A stretch of DNA of 64,000 nt from Suttonella sp. R2A3 (lineage in GTDB: Bacteria; Pseudomonadota; Gammaproteobacteria; Cardiobacteriales; Cardiobacteriaceae), in assembly GCF_021513215.1 (NCBI RefSeq), contig NZ_CP090975.1, positions 861,501 through 925,500 on the forward strand. Reading direction: 5' to 3'. The position numbers and the translations under genes were made by a program. Each line of letters opens with the position of its first letter. Within the stretch, counting starts at the first letter, position 1. Below the pieces are notes generated by a model. It was not told the origin of the DNA. It was given only the letters and a program-made list of their open reading frames with translations, and searched no databases. Positions 16,518-54,447 of this stretch are shown piece by piece.

Positions 16518-16537
16518 AATGTCTTAATCCATAGTCA

Positions 16538-30637: not shown

Positions 30638-32482
30638 CTAAATAATCGTTATGCCGTCTTGAACTAGAATTTGGATGTAGTTACTACCGTCATAGTTTTG
30701 TAATACATGATAGCTGTCACCACCTAAAGACGCCATACCGGTTTCAATCCAACCCTTCTCGTCTAAACCGATATCGAGCACATCACCAAAGTCACCTTGA
30801 AATTGCAGCACATCCGCTGGCGTTACACTTGCCAAATCCAGATACTCTTCAGCACCAACTAAGCTAGTATTAACCTCCACTGTACGACCTGTAGCATTCT
30901 CAGCAACCGTGACTGAAAATCCATTACTCTCTGAACCCGGAATAACCGCTAGTGAGCTAGTTGCATCACCATAAACAGCCTTAACCTGAAAATTATGTTT
31001 ACTGCCTGGTACATACTTATCAGGTGCATCAACGCCATCATAGTCAAACGTCCATGTACCATTAGGATCCCCACTAGTGACTATCACAGCAGCATTCCCA
31101 ATATAGTTACCGTTATCATAAACCAGAATGTGCACTTTATCTGGATCCATCCCATCGGTTGCCACTGTCAGGTTATTGATATCTATAGTTCCAGAAAGTG
31201 ATAATGCCAAATCACTTGTCGATGGACCTCCAGAAGTCAATGAAACAGCACTCCCCGAAGAATCATCTTCTACTGCAGTAATCTTAAGTGTATAGTCGGG
31301 CAGTATAGCCCCACCTGAAAGCACCACACCCGTATTAATATTAAGGTGTTGACTGGAAACATTTCCTGCAGTATCGATGGTACGAATAACAAACGTATGA
31401 CCAACTTCAACTTGCGGGTCTATATTATCTAAATACCAGCCAGTGGTAGAAGGAGAATCCTGCGCAGGAACAAAAGCCAATTCCTCACCTTTGCTACTAT
31501 AAACATAGAATCCTTCTGTATCTTCTGGCACCTCAACGTAAAAAGAGTCTCCTTTCCCATCACTATCAGTATCATTGAATGCACCAGCGTTGGTTACACC
31601 TACATTGCTTAAGTCTATGGTTATGGTGTATGAACCAGATTCTCGACCTTCGTTACCTGCTGCGTCAACAACTTTCGCAGTGTAAACGACTTTATCTGTA
31701 TCAGCGTAGCCGGTTTCATCCTGATAACTCCAGTCTGTGCCGTTAACCGTTGCATTTCCTAACTCAACAGGCGCTGCACCATTAACTGAAGCATAAATGA
31801 CCAAGTTTTCAGCCGTTACACCCGATTGGCTACCATCTGCCAGCGCTGCATCAAGTGTTCCTTTAAGCAGTGGCGTCTTGTCGTTGGTAACACCACCATC
31901 AGCTACGTCCACTTCACCAGTCGAACCACCAGGCTGTGGCATCTGATCATCAACAACCGTGGTAATCGTTGCTTTTTGGGTTGGCGCTGATGTATCTCCT
32001 GATTCTACAACAGGACTGGTATCGTCATCATCGACAAACAAGAACGCCAAGGGTAGTAGCAGTAGTGGCCATAATGGAATACCTTGGAATAAGGCGTCAC
32101 CACCCAAGGCCTGGCCTGAAGGCATTTGTTCTGCGAGCTGGGTCACGACGTTAACGTCTGCACCAGCTTCCGGGACATAGGCGTAGTATTGCCCGTCTTC
32201 GTTGAGACCAATCAGTGGGTTGTCTTTGGATTGTTGGTAATAGTCTTCAATGATCAGGTCTGGCTCATTAATGAGTGAGCCTTCAAAGGCAATCAGCAGG
32301 TCATCACCTTGACGGAGTACAGTAAGGTTTTCCGGAGCAAATTGGGTGGCGGCGTCGATGAGTTCGTAGTTGACGCCATTTTGTGCAGCAATGCGTACGG
32401 CTTCGCTGCCTGCAGTGTTAATTTGCAGGGTTTCAACGGTATTCTTACCGCTATTAATGTTTAATATGATTACTTTACTCAT
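30638..32482 (-). CDS. BapA-prefix adhesin, 614 residues
   Basis: The first ~115 residues form the BapA-type prefix (APENLTVLRQGDDLLIAFEG, then DLIIEDYY). A hydrophobic segment LWPLLLLPLAFLF near residue 140 and a short acidic stretch follow. Two or three Ig-like domains come next, then a C-terminal module (DVLQFQGDFGDVLDIGL ... YIQILVQDGITII). The same C-terminal module recurs in the 254-residue protein and in the remnant near 34 kb. It is predicted to be exported by the T1SS at 13-19 kb. Compared with the giants it carries few Ig domains, so it may be a short-reach adhesin. The start has a GGATAGGACGGT leader, similar to that of A0. Confidence 0.82.
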   Translation of the reverse strand: MSKVIILNINSGKNTVETLQINTAGSEAVRIAAQNGVNYELIDAATQFAPENLTVLRQGDDLLIAFEGSLINEPDLIIEDYYQQSKDNPLIGLNEDGQYYAYVPEAGADVNVVTQLAEQMPSGQALGGDALFQGIPLWPLLLLPLAFLFVDDDDTSPVVESGDTSAPTQKATITTVVDDQMPQPGGSTGEVDVADGGVTNDKTPLLKGTLDAALADGSQSGVTAENLVIYASVNGAAPVELGNATVNGTDWSYQDETGYADTDKVVYTAKVVDAAGNEGRESGSYTITIDLSNVGVTNAGAFNDTDSDGKGDSFYVEVPEDTEGFYVYSSKGEELAFVPAQDSPSTTGWYLDNIDPQVEVGHTFVIRTIDTAGNVSSQHLNINTGVVLSGGAILPDYTLKITAVEDDSSGSAVSLTSGGPSTSDLALSLSGTIDINNLTVATDGMDPDKVHILVYDNGNYIGNAAVIVTSGDPNGTWTFDYDGVDAPDKYVPGSKHNFQVKAVYGDATSSLAVIPGSESNGFSVTVAENATGRTVEVNTSLVGAEEYLDLASVTPADVLQFQGDFGDVLDIGLDEKGWIETGMASLGGDSYHVLQNYDGSNYIQILVQDGITII

Positions 32483-34278: not shown

Positions 34279-35043
34279 CTAGATAACGACAATACCATCC
34301 TGCACCAAGATTTGTGTATAAGCGCCATCAACACTGTTGTAATGTTCCCAAATGGAGTAATTATTATCACCCACCGTAGTGGTACCAGCTTTAGCCCAAT
34401 CACCAGCAGTTAAATTAATTTCAAGCCGATCACCTAAATCTCCATCAAACTGCAATACATCACCAGCAGTAATCTTCGACACATCCAGCTTTAATTGGGT
34501 TTGATCACCAACCAATTCCGTATTTTGAACTATAGCCTCTGGATCTATAAAATTCGTTTTTTCTGTGCTTCCAGAGGAATCATCAACAACAAGGAAGGCT
34601 AATGGCACCAGCGCTATTGGCCATAACGGAATCCCCTGGATCCCCTGGGCTACAGCATCACCACTCAGAGCTTGGCCTGAGGGCATTTGTTCTGCGAGCA
34701 TGGTGAGCGCGTTAACGTCTGCACCAGCTTCTGGAACATAGGCGTAGTATTGGCCGTCTTCGTTGAGACCAATCAGTGGGTTGTCTTTGGATTGCTGGTA
34801 ATAGTCTTCAATGATCAGGTCTGGCTCATTAATGAGTGAGCCTTCAAAGGCAATCAGCAGGTCATCACCTTGACGGAGTACAGTAAGGTTTTCCGGAGCA
34901 AATTGGGTGGCGGCGTCGATGAGTTCGTAGTTGACGCCATTTTGTGCAGCAATGCGTACGGCTTCGCTGCCTGCAGTGTTAATTTGCAGGGTTTCAACGG
35001 TATTCTCACCGCTATTAATGTTTAATGTGATCACTTTACTCAT
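34279..35043 (-). CDS. A0: minimal BapA-prefix secreted protein, 254 residues
   Basis: The N-terminal ~115 residues are almost identical to the prefix of the giant adhesins. A hydrophobic LWPIALVPLAFLVV follows near residue 143, then directly the C-terminal module (DVLQFDGDLGDRLEI ... YTQILVQDGIVVI). No Ig domain lies between. The protein therefore has both ends expected of a T1SS substrate and no stalk. It may be functional as a small surface factor, or it may be a deletion derivative of a longer gene; the frame is intact. Its 5' flank and first codons reappear in front of A1 and A2, which makes it the donor of their upstream ends. AAGGA lies 10 bases before the start. Confidence 0.8.
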   Translation of the reverse strand: MSKVITLNINSGENTVETLQINTAGSEAVRIAAQNGVNYELIDAATQFAPENLTVLRQGDDLLIAFEGSLINEPDLIIEDYYQQSKDNPLIGLNEDGQYYAYVPEAGADVNALTMLAEQMPSGQALSGDAVAQGIQGIPLWPIALVPLAFLVVDDSSGSTEKTNFIDPEAIVQNTELVGDQTQLKLDVSKITAGDVLQFDGDLGDRLEINLTAGDWAKAGTTTVGDNNYSIWEHYNSVDGAYTQILVQDGIVVI

Positions 35044-35241
35044 TACCGTCTAATCCTTTTATAGCAATTATTTAAGCCCATATAGAGGCTTTAATTTAGC
35101 GTGCGCCAACGACACAGAAACCAATACTTAATCTATCACATTCATACTTTTTTGTAATTATCCTTGCACTAAAAAATACTCATCAATGCTTGTTTAACCA
35201 AATACAAACCATCTATTTGGGGAAATGCGTGGCCGCGACTT

Positions 35242-36330
35242 TTAAACGCCATCAAGCGCCATATCACCTTGAACAATCCAACCGCGACGACTCATCCACG
35301 CACGCATTAATCCAGCAATCAGTGCGGGTAAGATAAACATCAATAACACAATAGCCATCCAGATCGTCATGACGGATAAAACACCTGCGTTGGCATCAAT
35401 AACCGCGAACACGCCCACCAGACCAGCTGTTCCCATGCCGCTACCAAGCGCACTGCATTGCAGCGCAAAGACAACTGTTGCTAATGGGCCAACGATGGCG
35501 CTTGCCACAATCGCTGGCAACATGATGATCGGTTTGCGCATCACATTAGGAATTTGCAGCATACTGGTGCCTAGCCCTTGGGAAATCAGACCGCTGATCC
35601 CATTTTCACGAAAGCTCGCAACAGCAAAGCCCACCATATGCGCTGCACAACCCACCACCGCCGCCCCACCGGCCAAACCGTCCAAACCAATAGCAATACA
35701 CATCGCCGCACTACTGGTTGGTAGCGTGAGTAATATACCCACCACCACGCTAATCACAACCCCCATCAAAAAGGGTTGTAGTGAGGTGGCATAATGAATC
35801 GCCTGGCCAAGCGCGTTAATCGCCGCGACTACCGGCGGGCACAACGTCCAGCAAATCAACAGCGCCATGCTAAACATCGCGAGCGGAAGTAATAAGATAT
35901 CAAGCCGTGTTTTGCCATGCAGCCAAGCGCCTAAACGGTAAGAAAATACGGCAGTGAGGTAGGCGCCAATCGGATTGCCCGGCAGCGCCCTTAGCATCGG
36001 GGGCAGGTTTTCCAAATCACGCACAAAAAGCGTACCACCGACCAGTAATTCGCTGTGTGCGCCCATCATGCCGGTAACTAAACAACACAAAGCAACCAGC
36101 GGTGGCGCGCCTAAATAGACAGCGATGCCGACGCCAATCCCCGCCCCCATCATCACACCGGCCCATTTGCCAATTAATACAAATAGCTCCCAGCCAAACC
36201 AAGCGCCAATTTGGCTCATGATTAAGCCGGCAATCAAGGTAACAAACAACCCTGCCGCCATACCGCTAAGCGCGGTGATAAAGTATTTATGGAGAAATGC
36301 CTTAGTTTGAATCGCCATCGTCTTTACCAT
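35242..36330 (-). CDS. PTS EIIC-like membrane protein, copy 1
   Basis: 362 residues with about nine hydrophobic segments, matching the stand-alone PTS_EIIC_2 type (Pfam PF13303) in the N-terminal ALSGMAAGLFVTLIAGLI and the Gly/Ala-rich core. No EIIA or EIIB domain is attached, and no EI, HPr or partner EII gene is in the window, so the substrate and even phosphotransfer coupling are unknown. It lies 198 bases upstream of A0 on the same strand, so the two may share a transcript. The spacer to the divergent glycosyltransferase-like gene should hold both promoters. Its direct pairing with adhesin genes is unusual. Confidence 0.8.
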   Translation of the reverse strand: MVKTMAIQTKAFLHKYFITALSGMAAGLFVTLIAGLIMSQIGAWFGWELFVLIGKWAGVMMGAGIGVGIAVYLGAPPLVALCCLVTGMMGAHSELLVGGTLFVRDLENLPPMLRALPGNPIGAYLTAVFSYRLGAWLHGKTRLDILLLPLAMFSMALLICWTLCPPVVAAINALGQAIHYATSLQPFLMGVVISVVVGILLTLPTSSAAMCIAIGLDGLAGGAAVVGCAAHMVGFAVASFRENGISGLISQGLGTSMLQIPNVMRKPIIMLPAIVASAIVGPLATVVFALQCSALGSGMGTAGLVGVFAVIDANAGVLSVMTIWMAIVLLMFILPALIAGLMRAWMSRRGWIVQGDMALDGV

Positions 36331-36650
36331 GCAAAATGAGCACTATAACACATGAACAATTATTCATATTCACTATTGCACCCACCACCACTGCTACAAA
36401 ACAGTTAGCCTTAAGAGGACAACGCGGTTAAAACGATAGTTCATCGAGTAACAATTAATACCTACTGCTTCACGCATAGCTTATAGTCACATTCAACTGT
36501 ATTTACCATTTAATAGCATGCAAAACATGGCCATCTGTCGAAATGTCACATAAAACCTTTTATCATTGATGAAAATCGTTTGGATGCGTACGCTAACCCA
36601 TTACCACGACAGCCTCAACCTTTTATAACCCCTGACTCTTAAACCTTTTT
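36331..36650. promoter_or_regulatory. Divergent promoter region between PTS-like and glycosyltransferase-like genes
   Basis: 320 bases, AT-rich, with no open frame. It must contain the start signals for both divergent genes. A minus-strand -10-like TATAGTG sits close to the PTS-like gene. I see no clear operator or paired repeat. The plus-strand gene has no obvious ribosome-binding site. The same spacer is repeated at 44557 and 52783. Confidence 0.45.
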
Positions 36651-37934
36651 ATGCAAAAAACGGCAATCAACTCAATAGATAGTAAAACACTGAAGCAAAT
36701 CATAGACGAGTTTATGGTACTAGCCAATAACGCTGATTTCACAGCTGGTAAAGCCTTACTGTTACAAGCCGCTAAACACTACCCTAATGAACCATTGGTT
36801 TTTATGAATCTTGGACTGTGCCACTTAAGACTAAAAGAGCTACAAGCGGCTTACGATGCTTATCAAAAAACACTGGCGCTATTCCGTGACGAAACACCAA
36901 ACACCAACCTCTATGACGGTCTAGCAGAGGCCTGCTTTTTTCTTGATAAACCTGAAGAGACAAAAAAATATGGCAGATTAGCGCTAGAAACCAAACTGTC
37001 ACAAATCAAAAAAATTGAGCCTTTGCCATTTGCCAGCAAACACCCACCCGCTTTTAACGACAAAAACCCTAGCGAAAATATCATTTCATTTTCACTCTTT
37101 GGCGATAACCCAAGGTATTGTGAAACTGCCCTACTCAACATTTACTGGGCAAAAAAAGTGTTGCCAAACTGGACTTGCCGCTTTTACCTTGATGACAGTG
37201 TGCCAACCCATGTCAAAAACCGACTTCAAAAACATGGTGGGCAGATTGTTGAAGTATCTACGGAAATAAAACAACGGATGTCGGGGCTGTTCTGGCGCTT
37301 TTTAGTGATAGACGACCCCAGCGCAAAACGCTTTTTAATTCGTGATGCAGATTCGCTGGTTTCTTTTAAAGAACGTGTTGCCATCAATGCATGGCTAAGA
37401 AGCGATAAATGGTTTCATACGATGCGCGATTTTTGCTCACACACCGAGCTGATTTTGGCGGGCATGTGGGGCGGTTGCCATGGTGCCATTGACAACATCC
37501 AAGAGAAAATAAATACTTTTCATAACCTGCAAGCAAAAGGGACACAGCGGTTTTGGGATCAACATTTCCTGCGTTACCAGATCTACCCAATCCTCTCACA
37601 AAGCCTGCTTGCTCACGACAGCCAAGACATACAAGCGGGTGCGCTGCCCTTTCCTGAAACCAAAGCAAAAACAGACCACGAACGCCATGAAAACTTTCAT
37701 ATAGGACGTAACATGGCAACAGGTCGGGTTCTGATCAATACTGCAAATACCGAACATACCCACGTAAGCTGGCAGCTGGTTAATACAAAATCCCCTGATG
37801 TCATTTATGGATATACCCAGCCTATCAACGGACAAGAACAGGTGGCCATTCACTTACCCGATGAGCATATAAAAAAGCTGCAGCAGAAAATATTTGGCAT
37901 TAAAACACAATTTTTTACGCCGAATGATCGTTAG
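36651..37934 (+). CDS. TPR plus glycosyltransferase-like protein, copy 1
   Basis: 427 residues, no signal peptide. Residues ~10-120 contain TPR-type helices (NEPLVFMNLGLCHLRLKELQ, AAYDAYQKTLALF). From ~130 a GT-A-like domain follows: SFSLFGDNPRYCETALLN, RFYLDDSVP, then RDADSLVSFKERVAINAWL with a DxD-type motif, HTMRDF and AGMWGG. The R-D-x-D-S / M-R-D / G-M-W-G set marks a widespread family of putative glycosyltransferases. It probably acts in the cytoplasm on a protein or sugar acceptor; the TPRs suggest a protein partner. It converges on the adhesin gene A1 with a shared terminator. That A1 is its substrate is only a hypothesis. Confidence 0.78.
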   Translation: MQKTAINSIDSKTLKQIIDEFMVLANNADFTAGKALLLQAAKHYPNEPLVFMNLGLCHLRLKELQAAYDAYQKTLALFRDETPNTNLYDGLAEACFFLDKPEETKKYGRLALETKLSQIKKIEPLPFASKHPPAFNDKNPSENIISFSLFGDNPRYCETALLNIYWAKKVLPNWTCRFYLDDSVPTHVKNRLQKHGGQIVEVSTEIKQRMSGLFWRFLVIDDPSAKRFLIRDADSLVSFKERVAINAWLRSDKWFHTMRDFCSHTELILAGMWGGCHGAIDNIQEKINTFHNLQAKGTQRFWDQHFLRYQIYPILSQSLLAHDSQDIQAGALPFPETKAKTDHERHENFHIGRNMATGRVLINTANTEHTHVSWQLVNTKSPDVIYGYTQPINGQEQVAIHLPDEHIKKLQQKIFGIKTQFFTPNDR

Positions 37935-37943
37935 ATAATCGAT

Positions 37944-37971
37944 AAAAAAGCCTCCAGATGGAGGCTTTTTT
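37944..37971. terminator. Bidirectional terminator between glycosyltransferase-like gene 1 and A1
   Basis: AAAAAAGCCTCC / GGAGGCTTTTTT with a 4-base loop. Symmetrical A and T runs let it stop the plus-strand transcript and the converging A1 transcript. Confidence 0.92.
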
Positions 37972-37995
37972 GCAAGGAACATCCGTGCTCTCAGG

Positions 37996-40900
37996 TTAAA
38001 TGATCTGAATACCTGAATGACTTAGCACCAAGAGATCATTCGTCCCATCGCTATAAATATCATAAGAAACACCGCCAAAAGTCGTTGTTCCTGTAGCGGT
38101 TGTACTACCATAGAAATCCACGCTATCTCCCGCATTGCCTTTCACCATCATTGCCGAGTTATAGGTATTACCATTATCGTCGGTAAACGTTCCTGAGTTA
38201 CGGGTAAATGCCCCAGCATCCTCAATAATCAAACGATTATCACCACCGCCTGTGATATCAAATATCTCAAACCCGGTCAGATCATTGTTGTCTTGAAGGT
38301 ATTCAAAAAGTCCTGAGACGCCATCATCAAATTTATAGGTGTCAATACCCTCACCACCATCAGCAACACTACCTTCAGCATAGCGTTTGGTATTGATGAT
38401 CAACGTATCATTACCCGTCCCCATATATAGGTCGGCACCTGCCTCTAAATAGTCTAATGATTCACGTGTAAACCTTGCCGTATCATCACCAGCACCCATA
38501 TCAATAATGGTTCCACCCGTGGTAGCAATATTTGCCTGGAAATAGTCATCGCCATCGCCCATGAATATTCTCGAATCACCATCCAATGTATTGGACACAT
38601 ACATCGAGTCATCGCCACCATTGAAGTTGTATGTTCCAGCACTTACATTGCCTTTTACTAAGACAACTTCGCTAAAGTCACTCAAGTTATGAACTCGAAC
38701 CGCTGCAGAACCAGTTTGAGTACTACCTTCAAGCCAGTCAAAGCCATTTAGCAGCCAAGTAAAGTAATACAAATTGCCAAATTCACCCACATCTGTCTCA
38801 TTGCCCGCCTTATCAATAATCCCAAGCCGTGCCTGAATCTTGTCATAAGGTTCGGATGCTAATGCGTTGTAAATGGGATCTGTCAGAGGTTTTTTTAAAG
38901 CGAGTGAGAAAGTTCCATCACTAGAGGCAGTCGTATTAGCTTCACCGACATCAAACTTACCATTGTTATTTTCATCATCATAAACAAAGGCATCTGCTTC
39001 GGCGATACCTAAAAGTGTATTTGTATCACTATCATACCCATTAACGACTACATCACGTATTTTCTGATCCAACGTCATGTCCAGCGTGCCCGTAGTAACC
39101 GCAGGATCATAATCAGGAGAGGTTAATCGCGCTTCTAAGTGGTACGCCTTACCCTCCCAGCCATCGTAACCTGGCAGCTTAAATGATCTCCCAGAGCCAG
39201 TTTTCCAGCCCGAACCATCATTTAAGTTATACTCCCATGAAGCACCCCGTGGTATCCCCTCTACATGCACAGTGGGCTTCCTGGTGTAGTTATCGGTATT
39301 GCTACCAATATTTGGCGATACTTGACTACCAAATGTGTCATCAGCATCCAAAATATTAAGAACCAATGCGTCGTCGTTAATAATGGTCCCTTTTGCCGTC
39401 GATGTGCCGATTGTCATATCACCACTAGGATCACTCAATGTCACTGTAAAGGTCTCGCTGAGCTCAATCTTTGACTCTTGATTTGTGGCAATGGTGATGG
39501 TTTTACTGGTTTCATCTGCAGCAAAATTGAGTGTACCTGATGCTGCAACAATATCACTTGCATCAGCAGTATCATCACTTGCAAAACCAGTCGTATAATT
39601 AACACTGGCAGCCTGTGACGTATCGCCATTTCGTGTGACTGTGAAGGTTAAACTCTCCCCTTCTGTTGCGCTGGCATCAGTAATACTAAATTCACCAAGA
39701 TCCACGTTTGTTACAGCGCCTGAAACGGTTTGACTTGAACGATTACCAGCTACATCGGTTGCCACTACCTCAAACTCATAACGGTTTTTTGGCGCCTCAT
39801 AATCAAATGCGACCGTTTGCGTCACCTCACCTGTGGCAGAGTCAATGCTGAAATTAGCCGCGTCCGCACCGGTTAAACTATAGGTATAAGTATGCTTATC
39901 AGTAACTGCCGCGGTATAAACCACATCACCTGTCGTACTCTCTTTTACATCAGCGCCCGTTTGACTGCTAGTAAACACAGGTGCTGCGCTATCTACAGTA
40001 AAGCTTTCAATAGAGGTGTTTGACCCTAATGTTTTATTACCAGCGGCATCGGTCGCAGTGACTTTTATCGTTGCACCGTCGATACTATAGTCACCATCAG
40101 CAAGCATGGTTGGCGCTACCGACCATGTGCCATCACCAGCTACCGTAGTCGTTAACGTTTCACCACTAATTTCAACCCTGATACTATCACCAGCATCCCC
40201 TGTACCCATAAGCTTAGGGGCTGTATTGTTGGTTATATTATCTGTAACATCTGACCCCGTGTCGTTGGTGGCATCTTCAGGCAGTTTCATGGTTGGCACA
40301 GCTGGTGGCGTTAAATCAACTATTGCCGAATCTGTGACTTGGTCAGGATCTGTGATTGGGTTGCCAGAAGCATCCTTAGTAATACTCGCAGAAACATTCA
40401 GCGTTTTAACATCAGTTAGTACAGACACACCAGTCAAGGTGACATACCCCTTGGCATAGTCAGCCTCTGTAATCTTATACTCCCGAACCACACTACCGTT
40501 AACACTGAGTGAAATTGTTTCTCCCGCCAGCTCTGTACCCAAATCTATGGTGACTGAAGTTTCATTAGAAATATACTCACTCTTACTAATATAGCCATCA
40601 TCATTAATGTCCATATTAATAGTGATTTCTTCTAAGTGTGTATTTGCGCCAGCAACCCCCGTAGCTTCCTCACTATCATTACCCGATTTATCAATAGCAA
40701 CAGCTTTTACCGTCGAACCATCCTTTACAGAGGCTTGCGGGATGGTGATGCTACCATCTGCTTTTGGCGTAATACTTGGGTCATCCGATAACCAAGAACC
40801 ATCAGGTTGCTTGATTACGGTGATATTTTGTTCACTATCCGATTCATCCACATAAGTCACTGTATATGACGCCAAGTCAGGATCTGCTGGTGGCGCAACA

Positions 40901-43269
40901 GCAACGGATCCATTCTCACTATTTGGTGTTACCTTAGGTGCATTAGGTGGCGTAGTGTCATTAGCCACATCCGTTGCTGGGCCTGATTTGTTACCTGCTG
41001 CATCGGTGGCGGTTGCTGTGGCTGTTTCACCATTGATTAAGGGATCACCTAAGATAGCGATGGTGTATTCACCCTCACTATCTGCGGTAGTGCTGTAGTC
41101 AGGAACACCATCACCATCGGTATCAATCTTAACCGTCGAGCCAGGTTCTGCTTTACCTGAGATAGATTTACCGTTATCAGCAATGTTGATGGTCGGTGTA
41201 TCAGGAGCCGTGGTATCAGGTGCAGTGTCTGATGCCGGGTCTGATTTGTTACCTGCCGCATCGGTGGCGGTTGCTGTAGCTGTTTCACCATTGATTAAGG
41301 GATGACCTGAGGTGTCTACGGTGTAGTTACCCTCGCTATCTGCGGTAGTGCTGTAGTCAGGAACACCATCACCATCGGTATCAATCTTAACCGTCGAGCC
41401 TGGCTCTGCGGTACCTGAGATAGATTTACCGTTATCAGTAACGTGAATGGTTGGCTTATCCGGTGCTGTGGTGTCATTAGCGACATCCGTTGCTGGGCCT
41501 GATTTGTTACCTGCTGCATCGGTGGCGGTTGCTGTGGCTGTTTCGCCATTAGTTAAGGGATCACCTAAGATAGCGATGGTGTATTCACCCTCACTATCTG
41601 CGGTAGTGCTGTAGTCAGGAACACCATCACCATCGGTATCAATCTTAACCGTCGAGCCAGGTTCTGCTTTACCTGAGATAGATTTACCGTTATCAGCAAT
41701 GTTGATGGTCGGTGTATCAGGAGCCGTGGTATCAGGTGCAGTGTCTGATGCCGGGTCTGATTTGTTACCTGCCGCATCGGTGGCGGTTGCTGTGGCTGTT
41801 TCACCATTGATTAAGGGATCACCTGAGATAGCAACGGTGTAGTTACCCTCGCTATCTGCAGTAGTGCTGTAGTCAGGAACACCATCACCATCGGTATCAA
41901 TCTTAACCGTCGAGCCAGGTTCTGCTTTACCTGAGATAGATTTACCGTTATCAGCAATGTTGATGGTCGGTGTATCAGGAGCCGTGGTATCAGGTGCAGT
42001 GTCTGATGCCGGGTCTGATTTGTTACCTGCCGCATCGGTGGCGGTTGCTGTAGCTGTTTCACCATTGATTAAGGGATGACCTGAGGTGTCTACGGTGTAG
42101 TTACCCTCGCTATCTGCGGTAGTGCTGTAGTCAGGAACACCATCACCATCGGTATCAATCTTAACCGTCGAGCCTGGCTCTGCGGTACCTGAGATAGATT
42201 TACCGTTATCAGTAACGTGAATGGTTGGCTTATCCGGTGCTGTGGTGTCATTAGCGACATCCGTTGCTGGGCCTGATTTGTTACCTGCTGCATCGGTGGC
42301 GGTTGCTGTGGCTGTTTCGCCATTAGTTAAGGGATCACCTAAGATAGCGATGGTGTATTCACCCTCACTATCTGCGGTAGTGCTGTAGTCAGGAACACCA
42401 TCACCATCGGTATCAATCTTAACCGTCGAGCCAGGTTCTGCTTTACCTGAGATAGATTTACCGTTATCAGCAATGTTGATGGTCGGTGTATCAGGAGCCG
42501 TGGTATCAGGTGCAGTGTCTGATGCCGGGTCTGATTTGTTACCTGCTGCATCGGTGGCGGTTGCTGTGGCTGTCTCACCATTGATTAAGGGATGACCCGA
42601 GGTATTGACGGTGTAGTTACCCTCGCTATCTGCGGTAGTGCTGTAGTCAGGAACACCATCACCATTGGTATCAATCTTAACCGTTGAGCCTGGCTCTGCG
42701 GTACCTGAAATAGACTTGCCATCATCAGCAACGTGAATGGTTGGCTTATCAGGCGCAATGGTATCAGAGGTCGTATCTGTGTTAGTGGTGTTTACGTCTG
42801 TATCGCGATCATCGTCAAAATAAAGAAAGAAGGCTAATGGCACTAGCACCAGTGGCCATAATGGGGTGCCTTGGAATAAGGCGTCACCACCCAAGGCCTG
42901 GCCTGAGGGTATTTGTTCTGCGAGCATGGTGAGCGCGTTAACGTCTGCACCAGCTTCTGGAACATAGGCGTAGTATTGGCCGTCTTCGTTGAGACCAATC
43001 AGTGGGTTGTCTTTGGATTGCTGGTAATAGTCTTCAATGATCAGGTCTGGCTCATTAATGAGTGAGCCTTCAAAGGCAATCAGCAGGTCATCACCTTGAC
43101 GGAGTACAGTAAGGTTTTCCGGAGCAAATTGGGTGGCGGCGTCGATGAGTTCGTAGTTGACGCCATTTTGTGCAGCAATGCGTACGGCTTCGCTGCCTGC
43201 AGTGTTAATTTGCAGGGTTTCAACGGTATTCTCACCGCTATTAATGTTTAATGTGATCACTTTACTCAT
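37996..43269 (-). CDS. A1: giant BapA-prefix Ig-repeat adhesin, 1757 residues
   Basis: Order: BapA-type prefix (1-115), hydrophobic LWPLVLVPLAFFLYF (137-151), and seven 86-residue Big_6-like Ig repeats (about 171-772) with AEPGSTVKIDTDGDGVPDYS cores. Then come an FN3-like domain (~775-870), two further Ig-like domains to ~1085 (one with an EF-hand-like DINDDGYISKSEY), a cadherin-like domain (~1090-1185), a Calx-beta domain (~1190-1300), an RTX-like stretch (~1550-1640, GDGDD, GAGDD, GTGND) and a C-terminal secretion region ending LLVLSHSGIQII. This is the typical plan of a calcium-stiffened biofilm adhesin exported by a LapBCE-type T1SS. The 5' end is A0-like and the body A3-like (see findings). 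PTS-like gene 2 lies 198 bases upstream. Confidence 0.88.
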   Translation of the reverse strand: MSKVITLNINSGENTVETLQINTAGSEAVRIAAQNGVNYELIDAATQFAPENLTVLRQGDDLLIAFEGSLINEPDLIIEDYYQQSKDNPLIGLNEDGQYYAYVPEAGADVNALTMLAEQIPSGQALGGDALFQGTPLWPLVLVPLAFFLYFDDDRDTDVNTTNTDTTSDTIAPDKPTIHVADDGKSISGTAEPGSTVKIDTNGDGVPDYSTTADSEGNYTVNTSGHPLINGETATATATDAAGNKSDPASDTAPDTTAPDTPTINIADNGKSISGKAEPGSTVKIDTDGDGVPDYSTTADSEGEYTIAILGDPLTNGETATATATDAAGNKSGPATDVANDTTAPDKPTIHVTDNGKSISGTAEPGSTVKIDTDGDGVPDYSTTADSEGNYTVDTSGHPLINGETATATATDAAGNKSDPASDTAPDTTAPDTPTINIADNGKSISGKAEPGSTVKIDTDGDGVPDYSTTADSEGNYTVAISGDPLINGETATATATDAAGNKSDPASDTAPDTTAPDTPTINIADNGKSISGKAEPGSTVKIDTDGDGVPDYSTTADSEGEYTIAILGDPLTNGETATATATDAAGNKSGPATDVANDTTAPDKPTIHVTDNGKSISGTAEPGSTVKIDTDGDGVPDYSTTADSEGNYTVDTSGHPLINGETATATATDAAGNKSDPASDTAPDTTAPDTPTINIADNGKSISGKAEPGSTVKIDTDGDGVPDYSTTADSEGEYTIAILGDPLINGETATATATDAAGNKSGPATDVANDTTPPNAPKVTPNSENGSVAVAPPADPDLASYTVTYVDESDSEQNITVIKQPDGSWLSDDPSITPKADGSITIPQASVKDGSTVKAVAIDKSGNDSEEATGVAGANTHLEEITINMDINDDGYISKSEYISNETSVTIDLGTELAGETISLSVNGSVVREYKITEADYAKGYVTLTGVSVLTDVKTLNVSASITKDASGNPITDPDQVTDSAIVDLTPPAVPTMKLPEDATNDTGSDVTDNITNNTAPKLMGTGDAGDSIRVEISGETLTTTVAGDGTWSVAPTMLADGDYSIDGATIKVTATDAAGNKTLGSNTSIESFTVDSAAPVFTSSQTGADVKESTTGDVVYTAAVTDKHTYTYSLTGADAANFSIDSATGEVTQTVAFDYEAPKNRYEFEVVATDVAGNRSSQTVSGAVTNVDLGEFSITDASATEGESLTFTVTRNGDTSQAASVNYTTGFASDDTADASDIVAASGTLNFAADETSKTITIATNQESKIELSETFTVTLSDPSGDMTIGTSTAKGTIINDDALVLNILDADDTFGSQVSPNIGSNTDNYTRKPTVHVEGIPRGASWEYNLNDGSGWKTGSGRSFKLPGYDGWEGKAYHLEARLTSPDYDPAVTTGTLDMTLDQKIRDVVVNGYDSDTNTLLGIAEADAFVYDDENNNGKFDVGEANTTASSDGTFSLALKKPLTDPIYNALASEPYDKIQARLGIIDKAGNETDVGEFGNLYYFTWLLNGFDWLEGSTQTGSAAVRVHNLSDFSEVVLVKGNVSAGTYNFNGGDDSMYVSNTLDGDSRIFMGDGDDYFQANIATTGGTIIDMGAGDDTARFTRESLDYLEAGADLYMGTGNDTLIINTKRYAEGSVADGGEGIDTYKFDDGVSGLFEYLQDNNDLTGFEIFDITGGGDNRLIIEDAGAFTRNSGTFTDDNGNTYNSAMMVKGNAGDSVDFYGSTTATGTTTFGGVSYDIYSDGTNDLLVLSHSGIQII
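40954..42759. repeat. Seven 258-bp Ig repeats within A1
   Basis: The period is 258 bases (86 codons). Two sub-types alternate, one with PTINIADNGKSISGKAEP and one with PTIHVTDNGKSISGTAEP, so longer blocks of two to three repeats are also nearly identical. This nested similarity favours loss or gain of single repeats. Confidence 0.88.
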
Positions 43270-43467
43270 TACCGTCTAATCCTTTTATAGCAATTATTTA
43301 AGCCCATATAGAGGCTTTAATTTAGCGTGCGCCAACGACACAGAAACCAATACTTAATCTATCACATTCATACTTTTTTGTAATTATCCTTGCACTAAAA
43401 AATACTCATCAATGCTTGTTTAACCAAATACAAACCATCTATTTGGGGAAATGCGTGGCCGCGACTT

Positions 43468-44556
43468 TTAAACGCCATCAAGCGCCATATCACCTTGAAC
43501 AATCCAACCGCGACGACTCATCCACGCACGCATTAATCCAGCAATCAGTGCGGGTAAGATAAACATCAATAACACAATAGCCATCCAGATCGTCATGACG
43601 GATAAAACACCTGCGTTGGCATCAATAACCGCGAACACGCCCACCAGACCAGCTGTTCCCATGCCGCTACCAAGCGCACTGCATTGCAGCGCAAAGACAA
43701 CTGTTGCTAATGGGCCAACGATGGCGCTTGCCACAATCGCTGGCAACATGATGATCGGTTTGCGCATCACATTAGGAATTTGCAGCATACTGGTGCCTAG
43801 CCCTTGGGAAATCAGACCGCTGATCCCATTTTCACGAAAGCTCGCAACAGCAAAGCCCACCATATGCGCTGCACAACCCACCACCGCCGCCCCACCGGCC
43901 AAACCGTCCAAACCAATAGCAATACACATCGCCGCACTACTGGTTGGTAGCGTGAGTAATATACCCACCACCACGCTAATCACAACCCCCATCAAAAAGG
44001 GTTGTAGTGAGGTGGCATAATGAATCGCCTGGCCAAGCGCGTTAATCGCCGCGACTACCGGCGGGCACAACGTCCAGCAAATCAACAGCGCCATGCTAAA
44101 CATCGCGAGCGGAAGTAATAAGATATCAAGCCGTGTTTTGCCATGCAGCCAAGCGCCTAAACGGTAAGAAAATACGGCAGTGAGGTAGGCGCCAATCGGA
44201 TTGCCCGGCAGCGCCCTTAGCATCGGGGGCAGGTTTTCCAAATCACGCACAAAAAGCGTACCACCGACCAGTAATTCGCTGTGTGCGCCCATCATGCCGG
44301 TAACTAAACAACACAAAGCAACCAGCGGTGGCGCGCCTAAATAGACAGCGATGCCGACGCCAATCCCCGCCCCCATCATCACACCGGCCCATTTGCCAAT
44401 TAATACAAATAGCTCCCAGCCAAACCAAGCGCCAATTTGGCTCATGATTAAGCCGGCAATCAAGGTAACAAACAACCCTGCCGCCATACCGCTAAGCGCG
44501 GTGATAAAGTATTTATGGAGAAATGCCTTAGTTTGAATCGCCATCGTCTTTACCAT
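43468..44556 (-). CDS. PTS EIIC-like membrane protein, copy 2
   Basis: Residue-for-residue identical to copy 1. Here it is the upstream neighbour of A1 (198-base spacer, same strand), so the functional pairing in the middle of the array is PTS-like protein with a giant adhesin rather than with the short A0. No sign of decay or divergence in this copy. Confidence 0.8.
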   Translation of the reverse strand: MVKTMAIQTKAFLHKYFITALSGMAAGLFVTLIAGLIMSQIGAWFGWELFVLIGKWAGVMMGAGIGVGIAVYLGAPPLVALCCLVTGMMGAHSELLVGGTLFVRDLENLPPMLRALPGNPIGAYLTAVFSYRLGAWLHGKTRLDILLLPLAMFSMALLICWTLCPPVVAAINALGQAIHYATSLQPFLMGVVISVVVGILLTLPTSSAAMCIAIGLDGLAGGAAVVGCAAHMVGFAVASFRENGISGLISQGLGTSMLQIPNVMRKPIIMLPAIVASAIVGPLATVVFALQCSALGSGMGTAGLVGVFAVIDANAGVLSVMTIWMAIVLLMFILPALIAGLMRAWMSRRGWIVQGDMALDGV

Positions 44557-44876
44557 GCAAAATGAGCACTATAACACATGAACAATTATTCATATTCACT
44601 ATTGCACCCACCACCACTGCTACAAAACAGTTAGCCTTAAGAGGACAACGCGGTTAAAACGATAGTTCATCGAGTAACAATTAATACCTACTGCTTCACG
44701 CATAGCTTATAGTCACATTCAACTGTATTTACCATTTAATAGCATGCAAAACATGGCCATCTGTCGAAATGTCACATAAAACCTTTTATCATTGATGAAA
44801 ATCGTTTGGATGCGTACGCTAACCCATTACCACGACAGCCTCAACCTTTTATAACCCCTGACTCTTAAACCTTTTT

Positions 44877-46160
44877 ATGCAAAAAACGGCAATCAACTCA
44901 ATAGATAGTAAAACACTGAAGCAAATCATAGACGAGTTTATGGTACTAGCCAATAACGCTGATTTCACAGCTGGTAAAGCCTTACTGTTACAAGCCGCTA
45001 AACACTACCCTAATGAACCATTGGTTTTTATGAATCTTGGACTGTGCCACTTAAGACTAAAAGAGCTACAAGCGGCTTACGATGCTTATCAAAAAACACT
45101 GGCGCTATTCCGTGACGAAACACCAAACACCAACCTCTATGACGGTCTAGCAGAGGCCTGCTTTTTTCTTGATAAACCTGAAGAGACAAAAAAATATGGC
45201 AGATTAGCGCTAGAAACCAAACTGTCACAAATCAAAAAAATTGAGCCTTTGCCATTTGCCAGCAAACACCCACCCGCTTTTAACGACAAAAACCCTAGCG
45301 AAAATATCATTTCATTTTCACTCTTTGGCGATAACCCAAGGTATTGTGAAACTGCCCTACTCAACATTTACTGGGCAAAAAAAGTGTTGCCAAACTGGAC
45401 TTGCCGCTTTTACCTTGATGACAGTGTGCCAACCCATGTCAAAAACCGACTTCAAAAACATGGTGGGCAGATTGTTGAAGTATCTACGGAAATAAAACAA
45501 CGGATGTCGGGGCTGTTCTGGCGCTTTTTAGTGATAGACGACCCCAGCGCAAAACGCTTTTTAATTCGTGATGCAGATTCGCTGGTTTCTTTTAAAGAAC
45601 GTGTTGCCATCAATGCATGGCTAAGAAGCGATAAATGGTTTCATACGATGCGCGATTTTTGCTCACACACCGAGCTGATTTTGGCGGGCATGTGGGGCGG
45701 TTGCCATGGTGCCATTGACAACATCCAAGAGAAAATAAATACTTTTCATAACCTGCAAGCAAAAGGGACACAGCGGTTTTGGGATCAACATTTCCTGCGT
45801 TACCAGATCTACCCAATCCTCTCACAAAGCCTGCTTGCTCACGACAGCCAAGACATACAAGCGGGTGCGCTGCCCTTTCCTGAAACCAAAGCAAAAACAG
45901 ACCACGAACGCCATGAAAACTTTCATATAGGACGTAACATGGCAACAGGTCGGGTTCTGATCAATACTGCAAATACCGAACATACCCACGTAAGCTGGCA
46001 GCTGGTTAATACAAAATCCCCTGATGTCATTTATGGATATACCCAGCCTATCAACGGACAAGAACAGGTGGCCATTCACTTACCCGATGAGCATATAAAA
46101 AAGCTGCAGCAGAAAATATTTGGCATTAAAACACAATTTTTTACGCCGAATGATCGTTAG
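44877..46160 (+). CDS. TPR plus glycosyltransferase-like protein, copy 2
   Basis: Identical to copy 1, with TPR helices and the RDADS, MRDF and GMWGG motifs intact. It converges on A2. Because the 5' spacer is also duplicated exactly, this copy should be expressed like the others, giving a threefold gene dose. Confidence 0.78.
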   Translation: MQKTAINSIDSKTLKQIIDEFMVLANNADFTAGKALLLQAAKHYPNEPLVFMNLGLCHLRLKELQAAYDAYQKTLALFRDETPNTNLYDGLAEACFFLDKPEETKKYGRLALETKLSQIKKIEPLPFASKHPPAFNDKNPSENIISFSLFGDNPRYCETALLNIYWAKKVLPNWTCRFYLDDSVPTHVKNRLQKHGGQIVEVSTEIKQRMSGLFWRFLVIDDPSAKRFLIRDADSLVSFKERVAINAWLRSDKWFHTMRDFCSHTELILAGMWGGCHGAIDNIQEKINTFHNLQAKGTQRFWDQHFLRYQIYPILSQSLLAHDSQDIQAGALPFPETKAKTDHERHENFHIGRNMATGRVLINTANTEHTHVSWQLVNTKSPDVIYGYTQPINGQEQVAIHLPDEHIKKLQQKIFGIKTQFFTPNDR

Positions 46161-46169
46161 ATAATCGAT

Positions 46170-46197
46170 AAAAAAGCCTCCAGATGGAGGCTTTTTT
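46170..46197. terminator. Bidirectional terminator between glycosyltransferase-like gene 2 and A2
   Basis: Same GCCTCC/GGAGGC hairpin with A and T flanks as in unit 1. Confidence 0.92.
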
Positions 46198-46221
46198 GCA
46201 AGGAACATCCGTGCTCTCAGG

Positions 46222-49200
46222 TTAAATGATCTGAATACCTGAATGACTTAGCACCAAGAGATCATTCGTCCCATCGCTATAAATATCATAAGAAACACCG
46301 CCAAAAGTCGTTGTTCCTGTAGCGGTTGTACTACCATAGAAATCCACGCTATCTCCCGCATTGCCTTTCACCATCATTGCCGAGTTATAGGTATTACCAT
46401 TATCGTCGGTAAACGTTCCTGAGTTACGGGTAAATGCCCCAGCATCCTCAATAATCAAACGATTATCACCACCGCCTGTGATATCAAATATCTCAAACCC
46501 GGTCAGATCATTGTTGTCTTGAAGGTATTCAAAAAGTCCTGAGACGCCATCATCAAATTTATAGGTGTCAATACCCTCACCACCATCAGCAACACTACCT
46601 TCAGCATAGCGTTTGGTATTGATGATCAACGTATCATTACCCGTCCCCATATATAGGTCGGCACCTGCCTCTAAATAGTCTAATGATTCACGTGTAAACC
46701 TTGCCGTATCATCACCAGCACCCATATCAATAATGGTTCCACCCGTGGTAGCAATATTTGCCTGGAAATAGTCATCGCCATCGCCCATGAATATTCTCGA
46801 ATCACCATCCAATGTATTGGACACATACATCGAGTCATCGCCACCATTGAAGTTGTATGTTCCAGCACTTACATTGCCTTTTACTAAGACAACTTCGCTA
46901 AAGTCACTCAAGTTATGAACTCGAACCGCTGCAGAACCAGTTTGAGTACTACCTTCAAGCCAGTCAAAGCCATTTAGCAGCCAAGTAAAGTAATACAAAT
47001 TGCCAAATTCACCCACATCTGTCTCATTGCCCGCCTTATCAATAATCCCAAGCCGTGCCTGAATCTTGTCATAAGGTTCGGATGCTAATGCGTTGTAAAT
47101 GGGATCTGTCAGAGGTTTTTTTAAAGCGAGTGAGAAAGTTCCATCACTAGAGGCAGTCGTATTAGCTTCACCGACATCAAACTTACCATTGTTATTTTCA
47201 TCATCATAAACAAAGGCATCTGCTTCGGCGATACCTAAAAGTGTATTTGTATCACTATCATACCCATTAACGACTACATCACGTATTTTCTGATCCAACG
47301 TCATGTCTAGCGTGCCCGTAGTAACCGCAGGATCATAATCAGGAGAGGTTAATCGCGCTTCTAAGTGGTACGCCTTACCCTCCCAGCCATCGTAACCTGG
47401 CAGCTTAAATGATCTCCCAGAGCCAGTTTTCCAGCCCGAACCATCATTTAAGTTATACTCCCATGAAGCACCCCGTGGTATCCCCTCTACATGCACAGTG
47501 GGCTTCCTGGTGTAGTTATCGGTATTGCTACCAATATTTGGCGATACTTGACTACCAAATGTGTCATCAGCATCCAAAATATTAAGAACCAATGCGTCGT
47601 CGTTAATAATGGTCCCTTTTGCCGTCGATGTGCCGATTGTCATATCACCACTAGGATCACTCAATGTCACTGTAAAGGTCTCGCTGAGCTCAATCTTTGA
47701 CTCTTGATTTGTGGCAATGGTGATGGTTTTACTGGTTTCATCTGCAGCAAAATTGAGTGTACCTGATGCTGCAACAATATCACTTGCATCAGCAGTATCA
47801 TCACTTGCAAAACCAGTCGTATAATTAACACTGGCAGCCTGTGACGTATCGCCATTTCGTGTGACTGTGAAGGTTAAACTCTCCCCTTCTGTTGCGCTGG
47901 CATCAGTAATACTAAATTCACCAAGATCCACGTTTGTTACAGCGCCTGAAACGGTTTGACTTGAACGATTACCAGCTACATCGGTTGCCACTACCTCAAA
48001 CTCATAACGGTTTTTTGGCGCCTCATAATCAAATGCGACCGTTTGCGTCACCTCACCTGTGGCAGAGTCAATGCTGAAATTAGCCGCGTCCGCACCGGTT
48101 AAACTATAGGTATAAGTATGCTTATCAGTAACTGCCGCGGTATAAACCACATCACCTGTCGTACTCTCTTTTACATCAGCGCCCGTTTGACTGCTAGTAA
48201 ACACAGGTGCTGCGCTATCTACAGTAAAGCTTTCAATAGAGGTGTTTGACCCTAATGTTTTATTACCAGCGGCATCGGTCGCAGTGACTTTTATCGTTGC
48301 ACCGTCGATACTATAGTCACCATCAGCAAGCATGGTTGGCGCTACCGACCATGTGCCATCACCAGCTACCGTAGTCGTTAACGTTTCACCACTAATTTCA
48401 ACCCTGATACTATCACCAGCATCCCCTGTACCCATAAGCTTAGGGGCTGTATTGTTGGTTATATTATCTGTAACATCTGACCCCGTGTCGTTGGTGGCAT
48501 CTTCAGGCAGTTTCATGGTTGGCACAGCTGGTGGCGTTAAATCAACTATTGCCGAATCTGTGACTTGGTCAGGATCTGTGATTGGGTTGCCAGAAGCATC
48601 CTTAGTAATACTCGCAGAAACATTCAGCGTTTTAACATCAGTTAGTACAGACACACCAGTCAAGGTGACATACCCCTTGGCATAGTCAGCCTCTGTAATC
48701 TTATACTCCCGAACCACACTACCGTTAACACTGAGTGAAATTGTTTCTCCCGCCAGCTCTGTACCCAAATCTATGGTGACTGAAGTTTCATTAGAAATAT
48801 ACTCACTCTTACTAATATAGCCATCATCATTAATGTCCATATTAATAGTGATTTCTTCTAAGTGTGTATTTGCGCCAGCAACCCCCGTAGCTTCCTCACT
48901 ATCATTACCCGATTTATCAATAGCAACAGCTTTTACCGTCGAACCATCCTTTACAGAGGCTTGCGGGATGGTGATGCTACCATCTGCTTTTGGCGTAATA
49001 CTTGGGTCATCCGATAACCAAGAACCATCAGGTTGCTTGATTACGGTGATATTTTGTTCACTATCCGATTCATCCACATAAGTCACTGTATATGACGCCA
49101 AGTCAGGATCTGCTGGTGGCGCAACAGCAACGGATCCATTCTCACTATTTGGTGTTACCTTAGGTGCATTAGGTGGCGTAGTGTCATTAGCCACATCCGT

Positions 49201-51495
49201 TGCTGGGCCTGATTTGTTACCTGCTGCATCGGTGGCGGTTGCTGTGGCTGTTTCACCATTGATTAAGGGATCACCTAAGATAGCGATGGTGTATTCACCC
49301 TCACTATCTGCGGTAGTGCTGTAGTCAGGAACACCATCACCATCGGTATCAATCTTAACCGTCGAGCCAGGTTCTGCTTTACCTGAGATAGATTTACCGT
49401 TATCAGCAATGTTGATGGTCGGTGTATCAGGAGCCGTGGTATCAGGTGCAGTGTCTGATGCCGGGTCTGATTTGTTACCTGCCGCATCGGTGGCGGTTGC
49501 TGTAGCTGTTTCACCATTGATTAAGGGATGACCTGAGGTGTCTACGGTGTAGTTACCCTCGCTATCTGCGGTAGTGCTGTAGTCAGGAACACCATCACCA
49601 TCGGTATCAATCTTAACCGTCGAGCCTGGCTCTGCGGTACCTGAGATAGATTTACCGTTATCAGTAACGTGAATGGTTGGCTTATCCGGTGCTGTGGTGT
49701 CATTAGCGACATCCGTTGCTGGGCCTGATTTGTTACCTGCTGCATCGGTGGCGGTTGCTGTGGCTGTTTCGCCATTAGTTAAGGGATCACCTAAGATAGC
49801 GATGGTGTATTCACCCTCACTATCTGCGGTAGTGCTGTAGTCAGGAACACCATCACCATCGGTATCAATCTTAACCGTCGAGCCAGGTTCTGCTTTACCT
49901 GAGATAGATTTACCGTTATCAGCAATGTTGATGGTCGGTGTATCAGGAGCCGTGGTATCAGGTGCAGTGTCTGATGCCGGGTCTGATTTGTTACCTGCCG
50001 CATCGGTGGCGGTTGCTGTGGCTGTTTCACCATTGATTAAGGGATCACCTGAGATAGCAACGGTGTAGTTACCCTCGCTATCTGCAGTAGTGCTGTAGTC
50101 AGGAACACCATCACCATCGGTATCAATCTTAACCGTCGAGCCAGGTTCTGCTTTACCTGAGATAGATTTACCGTTATCAGCAATGTTGATGGTCGGTGTA
50201 TCAGGAGCCGTGGTATCAGGTGCAGTGTCTGATGCCGGGTCTGATTTGTTACCTGCCGCATCGGTGGCGGTTGCTGTAGCTGTTTCACCATTGATTAAGG
50301 GATGACCTGAGGTGTCTACGGTGTAGTTACCCTCGCTATCTGCGGTAGTGCTGTAGTCAGGAACACCATCACCATCGGTATCAATCTTAACCGTCGAGCC
50401 TGGCTCTGCGGTACCTGAGATAGATTTACCGTTATCAGTAACGTGAATGGTTGGCTTATCCGGTGCTGTGGTGTCATTAGCGACATCCGTTGCTGGGCCT
50501 GATTTGTTACCTGCTGCATCGGTGGCGGTTGCTGTGGCTGTTTCGCCATTAGTTAAGGGATCACCTAAGATAGCGATGGTGTATTCACCCTCACTATCTG
50601 CGGTAGTGCTGTAGTCAGGAACACCATCACCATCGGTATCAATCTTAACCGTCGAGCCAGGTTCTGCTTTACCTGAGATAGATTTACCGTTATCAGCAAT
50701 GTTGATGGTCGGTGTATCAGGAGCCGTGGTATCAGGTGCAGTGTCTGATGCCGGGTCTGATTTGTTACCTGCTGCATCGGTGGCGGTTGCTGTGGCTGTC
50801 TCACCATTGATTAAGGGATGACCCGAGGTATTGACGGTGTAGTTACCCTCGCTATCTGCGGTAGTGCTGTAGTCAGGAACACCATCACCATTGGTATCAA
50901 TCTTAACCGTTGAGCCTGGCTCTGCGGTACCTGAAATAGACTTGCCATCATCAGCAACGTGAATGGTTGGCTTATCAGGCGCAATGGTATCAGAGGTCGT
51001 ATCTGTGTTAGTGGTGTTTACGTCTGTATCGCGATCATCGTCAAAATAAAGAAAGAAGGCTAATGGCACTAGCACCAGTGGCCATAATGGGGTGCCTTGG
51101 AATAAGGCGTCACCACCCAAGGCCTGGCCTGAGGGTATTTGTTCTGCGAGCATGGTGAGCGCGTTAACGTCTGCACCAGCTTCTGGAACATAGGCGTAGT
51201 ATTGGCCGTCTTCGTTGAGACCAATCAGTGGGTTGTCTTTGGATTGCTGGTAATAGTCTTCAATGATCAGGTCTGGCTCATTAATGAGTGAGCCTTCAAA
51301 GGCAATCAGCAGGTCATCACCTTGACGGAGTACAGTAAGGTTTTCCGGAGCAAATTGGGTGGCGGCGTCGATGAGTTCGTAGTTGACGCCATTTTGTGCA
51401 GCAATGCGTACGGCTTCGCTGCCTGCAGTGTTAATTTGCAGGGTTTCAACGGTATTCTCACCGCTATTAATGTTTAATGTGATCACTTTACTCAT
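46222..51495 (-). CDS. A2: giant BapA-prefix Ig-repeat adhesin, 1757 residues
   Basis: The protein is identical to A1 in every domain, including the order of the seven Ig repeats. The gene differs from A1 by a single synonymous base that I could find (T at 47308). The 5' flank is again the A0-type leader, preceded by PTS-like gene 3. Two intact identical giant genes in direct orientation are unstable by RecA recombination, so their retention suggests either a very recent event or selection for dosage. Confidence 0.88.
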   Translation of the reverse strand: MSKVITLNINSGENTVETLQINTAGSEAVRIAAQNGVNYELIDAATQFAPENLTVLRQGDDLLIAFEGSLINEPDLIIEDYYQQSKDNPLIGLNEDGQYYAYVPEAGADVNALTMLAEQIPSGQALGGDALFQGTPLWPLVLVPLAFFLYFDDDRDTDVNTTNTDTTSDTIAPDKPTIHVADDGKSISGTAEPGSTVKIDTNGDGVPDYSTTADSEGNYTVNTSGHPLINGETATATATDAAGNKSDPASDTAPDTTAPDTPTINIADNGKSISGKAEPGSTVKIDTDGDGVPDYSTTADSEGEYTIAILGDPLTNGETATATATDAAGNKSGPATDVANDTTAPDKPTIHVTDNGKSISGTAEPGSTVKIDTDGDGVPDYSTTADSEGNYTVDTSGHPLINGETATATATDAAGNKSDPASDTAPDTTAPDTPTINIADNGKSISGKAEPGSTVKIDTDGDGVPDYSTTADSEGNYTVAISGDPLINGETATATATDAAGNKSDPASDTAPDTTAPDTPTINIADNGKSISGKAEPGSTVKIDTDGDGVPDYSTTADSEGEYTIAILGDPLTNGETATATATDAAGNKSGPATDVANDTTAPDKPTIHVTDNGKSISGTAEPGSTVKIDTDGDGVPDYSTTADSEGNYTVDTSGHPLINGETATATATDAAGNKSDPASDTAPDTTAPDTPTINIADNGKSISGKAEPGSTVKIDTDGDGVPDYSTTADSEGEYTIAILGDPLINGETATATATDAAGNKSGPATDVANDTTPPNAPKVTPNSENGSVAVAPPADPDLASYTVTYVDESDSEQNITVIKQPDGSWLSDDPSITPKADGSITIPQASVKDGSTVKAVAIDKSGNDSEEATGVAGANTHLEEITINMDINDDGYISKSEYISNETSVTIDLGTELAGETISLSVNGSVVREYKITEADYAKGYVTLTGVSVLTDVKTLNVSASITKDASGNPITDPDQVTDSAIVDLTPPAVPTMKLPEDATNDTGSDVTDNITNNTAPKLMGTGDAGDSIRVEISGETLTTTVAGDGTWSVAPTMLADGDYSIDGATIKVTATDAAGNKTLGSNTSIESFTVDSAAPVFTSSQTGADVKESTTGDVVYTAAVTDKHTYTYSLTGADAANFSIDSATGEVTQTVAFDYEAPKNRYEFEVVATDVAGNRSSQTVSGAVTNVDLGEFSITDASATEGESLTFTVTRNGDTSQAASVNYTTGFASDDTADASDIVAASGTLNFAADETSKTITIATNQESKIELSETFTVTLSDPSGDMTIGTSTAKGTIINDDALVLNILDADDTFGSQVSPNIGSNTDNYTRKPTVHVEGIPRGASWEYNLNDGSGWKTGSGRSFKLPGYDGWEGKAYHLEARLTSPDYDPAVTTGTLDMTLDQKIRDVVVNGYDSDTNTLLGIAEADAFVYDDENNNGKFDVGEANTTASSDGTFSLALKKPLTDPIYNALASEPYDKIQARLGIIDKAGNETDVGEFGNLYYFTWLLNGFDWLEGSTQTGSAAVRVHNLSDFSEVVLVKGNVSAGTYNFNGGDDSMYVSNTLDGDSRIFMGDGDDYFQANIATTGGTIIDMGAGDDTARFTRESLDYLEAGADLYMGTGNDTLIINTKRYAEGSVADGGEGIDTYKFDDGVSGLFEYLQDNNDLTGFEIFDITGGGDNRLIIEDAGAFTRNSGTFTDDNGNTYNSAMMVKGNAGDSVDFYGSTTATGTTTFGGVSYDIYSDGTNDLLVLSHSGIQII
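49180..50985. repeat. Seven 258-bp Ig repeats within A2
   Basis: Same number, order and sub-types as in A1. Confidence 0.88.
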
Positions 51496-51693
51496 TACCG
51501 TCTAATCCTTTTATAGCAATTATTTAAGCCCATATAGAGGCTTTAATTTAGCGTGCGCCAACGACACAGAAACCAATACTTAATCTATCACATTCATACT
51601 TTTTTGTAATTATCCTTGCACTAAAAAATACTCATCAATGCTTGTTTAACCAAATACAAACCATCTATTTGGGGAAATGCGTGGCCGCGACTT

Positions 51694-52782: not shown

Positions 52783-53102
52783 GCAAAATGAGCACTATAA
52801 CACATGAACAATTATTCATATTCACTATTGCACCCACCACCACTGCTACAAAACAGTTAGCCTTAAGAGGACAACGCGGTTAAAACGATAGTTCATCGAG
52901 TAACAATTAATACCTACTGCTTCACGCATAGCTTATAGTCACATTCAACTGTATTTACCATTTAATAGCATGCAAAACATGGCCATCTGTCGAAATGTCA
53001 CATAAAACCTTTTATCATTGATGAAAATCGTTTGGATGCGTACGCTAACCCATTACCACGACAGCCTCAACCTTTTATAACCCCTGACTCTTAAACCTTT
53101 TT

Positions 53103-54386: not shown

Positions 54387-54395
54387 ATAATCGAT

Positions 54396-54423
54396 AAAAA
54401 AGCCTCCAGATGGAGGCTTTTTT
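54396..54423. terminator. Bidirectional terminator between glycosyltransferase-like gene 3 and A3
   Basis: Same hairpin as in units 1 and 2. Confidence 0.92.
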
Positions 54424-54447
54424 GCAAGGAACATCCGTGCTCTCAGG

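Follow-up and report, generated by a model that had tools for sequence, protein, structure and literature searches.

Gene duplication-amplification is known for the sdrCDE and csa1 surface-protein arrays of S. aureus, which have been described as 'gene accordions' (PMC7360770). Within a single surface-protein gene the number of repeats can vary as well, as is the case for SasG (PMC7360770). In Acinetobacter baylyi, tandem amplification occurs by unequal recombination between long repeats, which are 12-290 kb in size and were selected in the laboratory (PMC9997567). Here we describe an adhesin gene array in Suttonella sp. R2A3 in which two hybrid genes lie between their two parents, and compare it with these systems.

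Organization of the adhesin locus

The analysis covered a window of 64,000 nucleotides from the Suttonella sp. R2A3 genome, which is assembled as one closed contig of 1,989,117 bases. Five genes on the minus strand (A-1, A0, A1, A2 and A3) begin with near-identical prefixes of about 120 residues, and these five were the only prefix matches genome-wide, all inside the array locus. The gene A0 (34279..35043) is short and consists of the prefix and a short C-terminal tail. A1 (37996..43269), its copy A2 (46222..51495, one silent base different) and A3 (54448..59463) encode large Ig-repeat adhesins with matches to Ca_tandemer and Big_6 models. For A1 the matches were to NF033510 (E 1e-86) and PF17936 (E 3.1e-112), which mark repeated Ca2+-stabilized Ig-like domains. 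A-1 (30638..32482) represents a fourth type among the prefix genes, with a prefix that is a mosaic between A0-like and A3-like sequence. Directly downstream of A-1 a 1803-aa Ig-repeat adhesin is encoded (25161-30572) with a C-terminal end like that of the others, the prefix being absent.

The prefix may resemble the BapA/LapF prefix-like N-terminal domain. Assignment to that domain by a curated family model failed, as the prefix gave no Pfam match even at E 10; A0 gave no NCBIfam match at E 0.001. Near the adhesin genes (span 13084-18883) lie the genes of a type I secretion set, which would be the predicted exporter of these adhesins: HlyD, the membrane-fusion partner (13084-14310), an ABC transporter (14307-16517) and the outer-membrane partner OEP (16538-18883).

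A0, A1 and A2 are each preceded by a PTS EIIC-like gene (PF13303) and a 198-bp leader. The first PTS gene (35242..36330, minus strand) is one of three identical copies, the others being located at 43468-44556 and 51694-52782. In the four family relatives that possess such a gene it is single-copy, and its dosage rises with the array. The A0 leader (35044..35241, minus strand) runs from the PTS stop to the A0 start and is copied before A1 and A2; A3 is located behind pqi genes and has a leader of its own.

The remaining gene of the array, here called GT, is present in three identical copies on the plus strand, the first at 36651..37934. Its original naming as a glycosyltransferase was not confirmed, since TPR models were the only matches and a PDB sequence search returned no credible relative. 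The gene encodes a TPR protein, and a search of 31 further genomes of the order did not find it. Only distant matches were found in the class, in scattered gammaproteobacteria including Acinetobacter. A contig scan gave two distant relatives of GT, neither of which adjoins a prefix adhesin or PTS gene. The GT gene may have been acquired horizontally.

The hybrid joint

Base-by-base alignment of the prefix-coding DNA revealed a stretch of exactly 134 bp without any difference between A0 and A3, comprising codons 76-119 and two bases of codon 120. On the minus strand this interval corresponds to 34685..34818 in A0 and 59105..59238 in A3, and the same 134-bp sequence forms the joint in A1 (42911..43044) and A2 (51137..51270). 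It is bounded on one side by 34684, the last A0/A1 mismatch, where the coding strand has G in A0 and A in A1-A3, giving ATG (Met) vs ATA (Ile) at codon 120. The other bound is 59239, the first A3-specific base, which is equivalent to 34819 in A0.

On the 5' side of the interval A1 and A2 are identical to A0 at 14 out of 14 coding sites that separate A0 from A3. The leader, PTS and GT DNA upstream of A1 and A2 is 100% of the A0 type, and A0-type sequence continues unbroken from codon 119 across the whole unit. On the 3' side both genes follow A3 at every substitution or indel of the aligned region, down to 42635. From 43044 down to 42635, a span of 410 bp, A1 and A3 do not differ; below 42635 A1 and A2 depart from A3 in the Ig-repeat tract, after which some 3.8 kb of the body is identical again. 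With a single perfect switch and more than 40 separating sites, a mosaic produced by chance is excluded. The hybrid nature of A1 and A2, the A0/A3 identity over residues 76-119 with both its bounds, and the Met/Ile difference at codon 120 had been put forward in the original prediction and were all borne out at the level of single bases.

No other exact match between the left and right flanks of the array is as long as the 134-bp run, the runner-up being 56 bp. Joining A0 and A3 in silico within this run gave the A1 prefix in three tests; the single mismatch in one of the three arose because the comparison ran on beyond 42635, into the diverging part of the Ig tract. The hybrid is thus found at the inner joint and the two parents at the array ends, with the joint inside the 134 bp of homology common to both parents, which is the arrangement expected from unequal crossing-over.

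The tandem units

The array has a tandem period of 8226 bp. Unit 1 (34685..42910) and unit 2 (42911..51136) differ at one base in 8226 bp, at position 39082 in unit 1, where the change is silent (CTG/CTA, Leu1396). The third unit (51137..59238) matches unit 2 without a difference as far as 58251 (ca. 7.1 kb), after which it has the six-repeat tract of A3. Measured to the same homologous point, it is 258 bp shorter in all. As the units hardly differ across more than 7 kb, either the event is recent or the units are homogenized by recombination. Both unit boundaries fall at one homologous spot, 34684/34685 and 59238/59239. Since the unit ends and the switch coincide at this spot, the layout is as unequal crossing-over predicts.

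Ig-repeat tracts

The number of Big_6 repeats, each of 86 residues, is seven in A1 and A2 and six in A3. A unit with the present body of A3 would measure 7968 bp, which is 258 bp, or one repeat, below the observed length. Because of this difference in repeat number between the bodies, one crossover is not sufficient. The original claim that unequal crossing-over would create exactly this array is thus supported for the core crossover but does not hold as worded, since the repeat number must also have changed and the unit must have been duplicated a second time.

The direction of the repeat change was examined by painting one tract from the other. The A1 tract could be painted from A3 alone at a cost of 30, with 3 jumps and 2 mismatches over 2060 bp. 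Painting the A3 tract from A1 cost 165, with 39 mismatches, and the second repeat of A3 holds sequence that is absent from A1. The Ig tract of A1 and A2 (40950-42750) is a rearranged derivative of the six repeats of A3 (57398-58987). Such one-way painting identifies the A3 body as the source. It is independent support for A3 carrying the older body, and so for the polarity in which A0 and A3 gave rise to the hybrid. The rearranged tract is also evidence for a probable second level of unequal exchange, at domain repeats, beside the exchange at the gene level.

Relatives and other prefix regions

A single-copy A0-PTS-GT-A3 order was not found in any genome examined. The only genome of the same genus among these (G001) lacks both the prefix and the GT gene; a PTS gene is present on contig C1 without the neighbors seen in the window, and the pqi operon is on C2. 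In three other members of the family the PTS gene likewise is without these neighbors. As a single-unit relative was not found, the ancestral order is deduced from the sequence of Suttonella sp. R2A3 alone.

The prefix of A-1 is identical to that of A0 over 211 bp on the 5' side, then diverges, and is closer to A3 on the 3' side. At four-fold degenerate sites in codons 20-75 none of 29 differ between A-1 and A0, so their likeness is at the DNA level and goes beyond protein constraint alone. A-1 was considered as 5' donor of A1 and ruled out, because codons 4 and 13 differ between the two genes, as do several positions within the 134 bp. The mosaicism of A-1 may be the result of events like gene conversion, and part of the identity over the 134 bp may have arisen with or after the crossover.

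Other family members have prefixes at 34-51% identity, which start open reading frames of up to 3690 aa. In a genome of another genus of the family (G004), two distant adhesin genes, L063 (G004:C1:1661821-1663144) and L064 (G004:C1:2309905-2310905), share 93% DNA identity by BLAST over 531 bp around the prefix. This pair may represent another instance of prefix exchange and hints that exchange of prefix DNA could be wider than Suttonella sp. R2A3. Adhesin gene pairs that are 6-24 kb apart, L065/L066 in G004 and L070/L071 in G009, have prefix regions that are 98% or 93% identical, which suggests local duplications. Our literature searches turned up no directly comparable case of recombination in the prefix of an adhesin.

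Proposed history of the array

We consider the best explanation, with a probability of about 0.85, to be that A0 and A3 underwent unequal homologous crossing-over and that the 8226-bp unit was then amplified. What the sequence shows directly is the mosaic pattern, the joint, the boundaries of the near-identical units and the fact that the repeats can be derived in one direction only. The ancestor would have had the order A0, PTS, GT, A3 in this window. Sister chromosomes would have mispaired through the prefix-coding DNA common to A0 and A3 and recombined within the 134 bp, which would double the PTS-GT block of about 8 kb and fuse the A0 leader and its first 119 or so codons to the body of A3. 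In the resulting hybrid, an out-of-register exchange between Ig repeats, with a net gain of one, would then have led to seven repeats. The changed unit, now 8226 bp, would have been doubled again via these extended perfect repeats to produce A1 and A2, and one silent change would have followed in unit 1. The repeat reshuffling is thus placed after the first crossover and before the duplication into A1 and A2. Both the exchange between sister chromosomes and the order of the later events are what we infer from the array, and dependence on RecA would be expected by analogy with what is known of comparable arrays (PMC7360770; PMC9997567).

Tandem duplication by another route, for example short-homology joining or a larger duplication with later deletions, could in principle have been followed by gene conversion from A0 onto the 5' ends of extra A3-like genes. 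The conversion-like mosaicism of A-1 shows that prefix DNA elsewhere in the locus has a pattern of this kind. The conversion tract would nevertheless have to span the entire leader-PTS-GT block and stop precisely at the boundary of the unit, and more events would be required, which makes this route improbable. Reversing the polarity would make an A1-like gene ancestral, with A0 arising by body replacement and A3 by leader replacement. Although no outgroup fixes the order of events, the A1 tract is wholly contained in that of A3, which itself has sequence missing in A1. In addition, A0 continues beyond the prefix as a diverged gene end of its own, and the donor would need a fourth combination, A3 leader with A0 body, that is missing. 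We regard the reversed order as very improbable.

Somewhat less improbable, though still unlikely, is that the array is partly an assembly artefact, with near-identical units miscounted and a true number other than three. Two hybrids and three units are the counts as assembled in the one closed contig. With one difference in 8226 bp between units 1 and 2 and none over 7.1 kb between units 2 and 3, the count can be fixed only by reads longer than one unit. At least one hybrid must nevertheless exist, because the joint between A0 leader and A3 body is unlike both parents and lies in a single closed contig, and base 39082 sets unit 1 apart.

The giant adhesins A1 and A2 were indeed found behind the A0 leader, as had been predicted, which is a statement about sequence. 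It is plausible that the leader swap changes the expression of A1 and A2; counts of promoter-like sites and terminators were near chance level, and promoter-like sites were no commoner than expected by chance, so that these counts do not enter into the argument. A broader proposal is that the prefix DNA acts as a standing exchange cassette, kept alike by recombination, through which leaders and bodies are reshuffled, while the array expands and contracts as a device for dosage or antigen variation that puts giant adhesins under a second control region. We consider this proposal tentative and rather doubtful.

Comparison with known systems

The mechanism is textbook gene duplication-amplification, the ordinary bacterial route to amplify or reshuffle surface genes. 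What makes the Suttonella array of interest is that its history is preserved so completely: the two parental genes, the joint of the hybrid and subsequent changes in the number of domains are found side by side, an unusually legible record of amplification in which exchange occurred at two levels, gene and domain. Through a shared N-terminal module a giant adhesin can apparently acquire another leader and be multiplied in a single step, and continuing variation in copy number is predicted.

As in sdrCDE and csa1, neighboring surface-protein genes would have recombined at a common conserved segment with a change of copy number, repeats acting as the substrate. The proteins are different, being Gram-negative Ig-repeat adhesins encoded beside a type I secretion set, and the site of exchange is the N-terminal prefix here vs the C-terminal stalk in sdrCDE and csa1. 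The Suttonella unit furthermore carries two unrelated genes, and the array is known from one genome sequence. The likeness to SasG is in the out-of-register exchange between domain repeats that alters gene length, from six repeats in A3 to seven in A1 and A2; unlike in SasG, the change is layered on a gene-level hybrid and involves 86-residue Big_6 repeats. With A. baylyi the array shares a first duplication followed by expansion or collapse via long identical repeats, whereas the Suttonella units are 8.2 kb long and occur in one natural genome.
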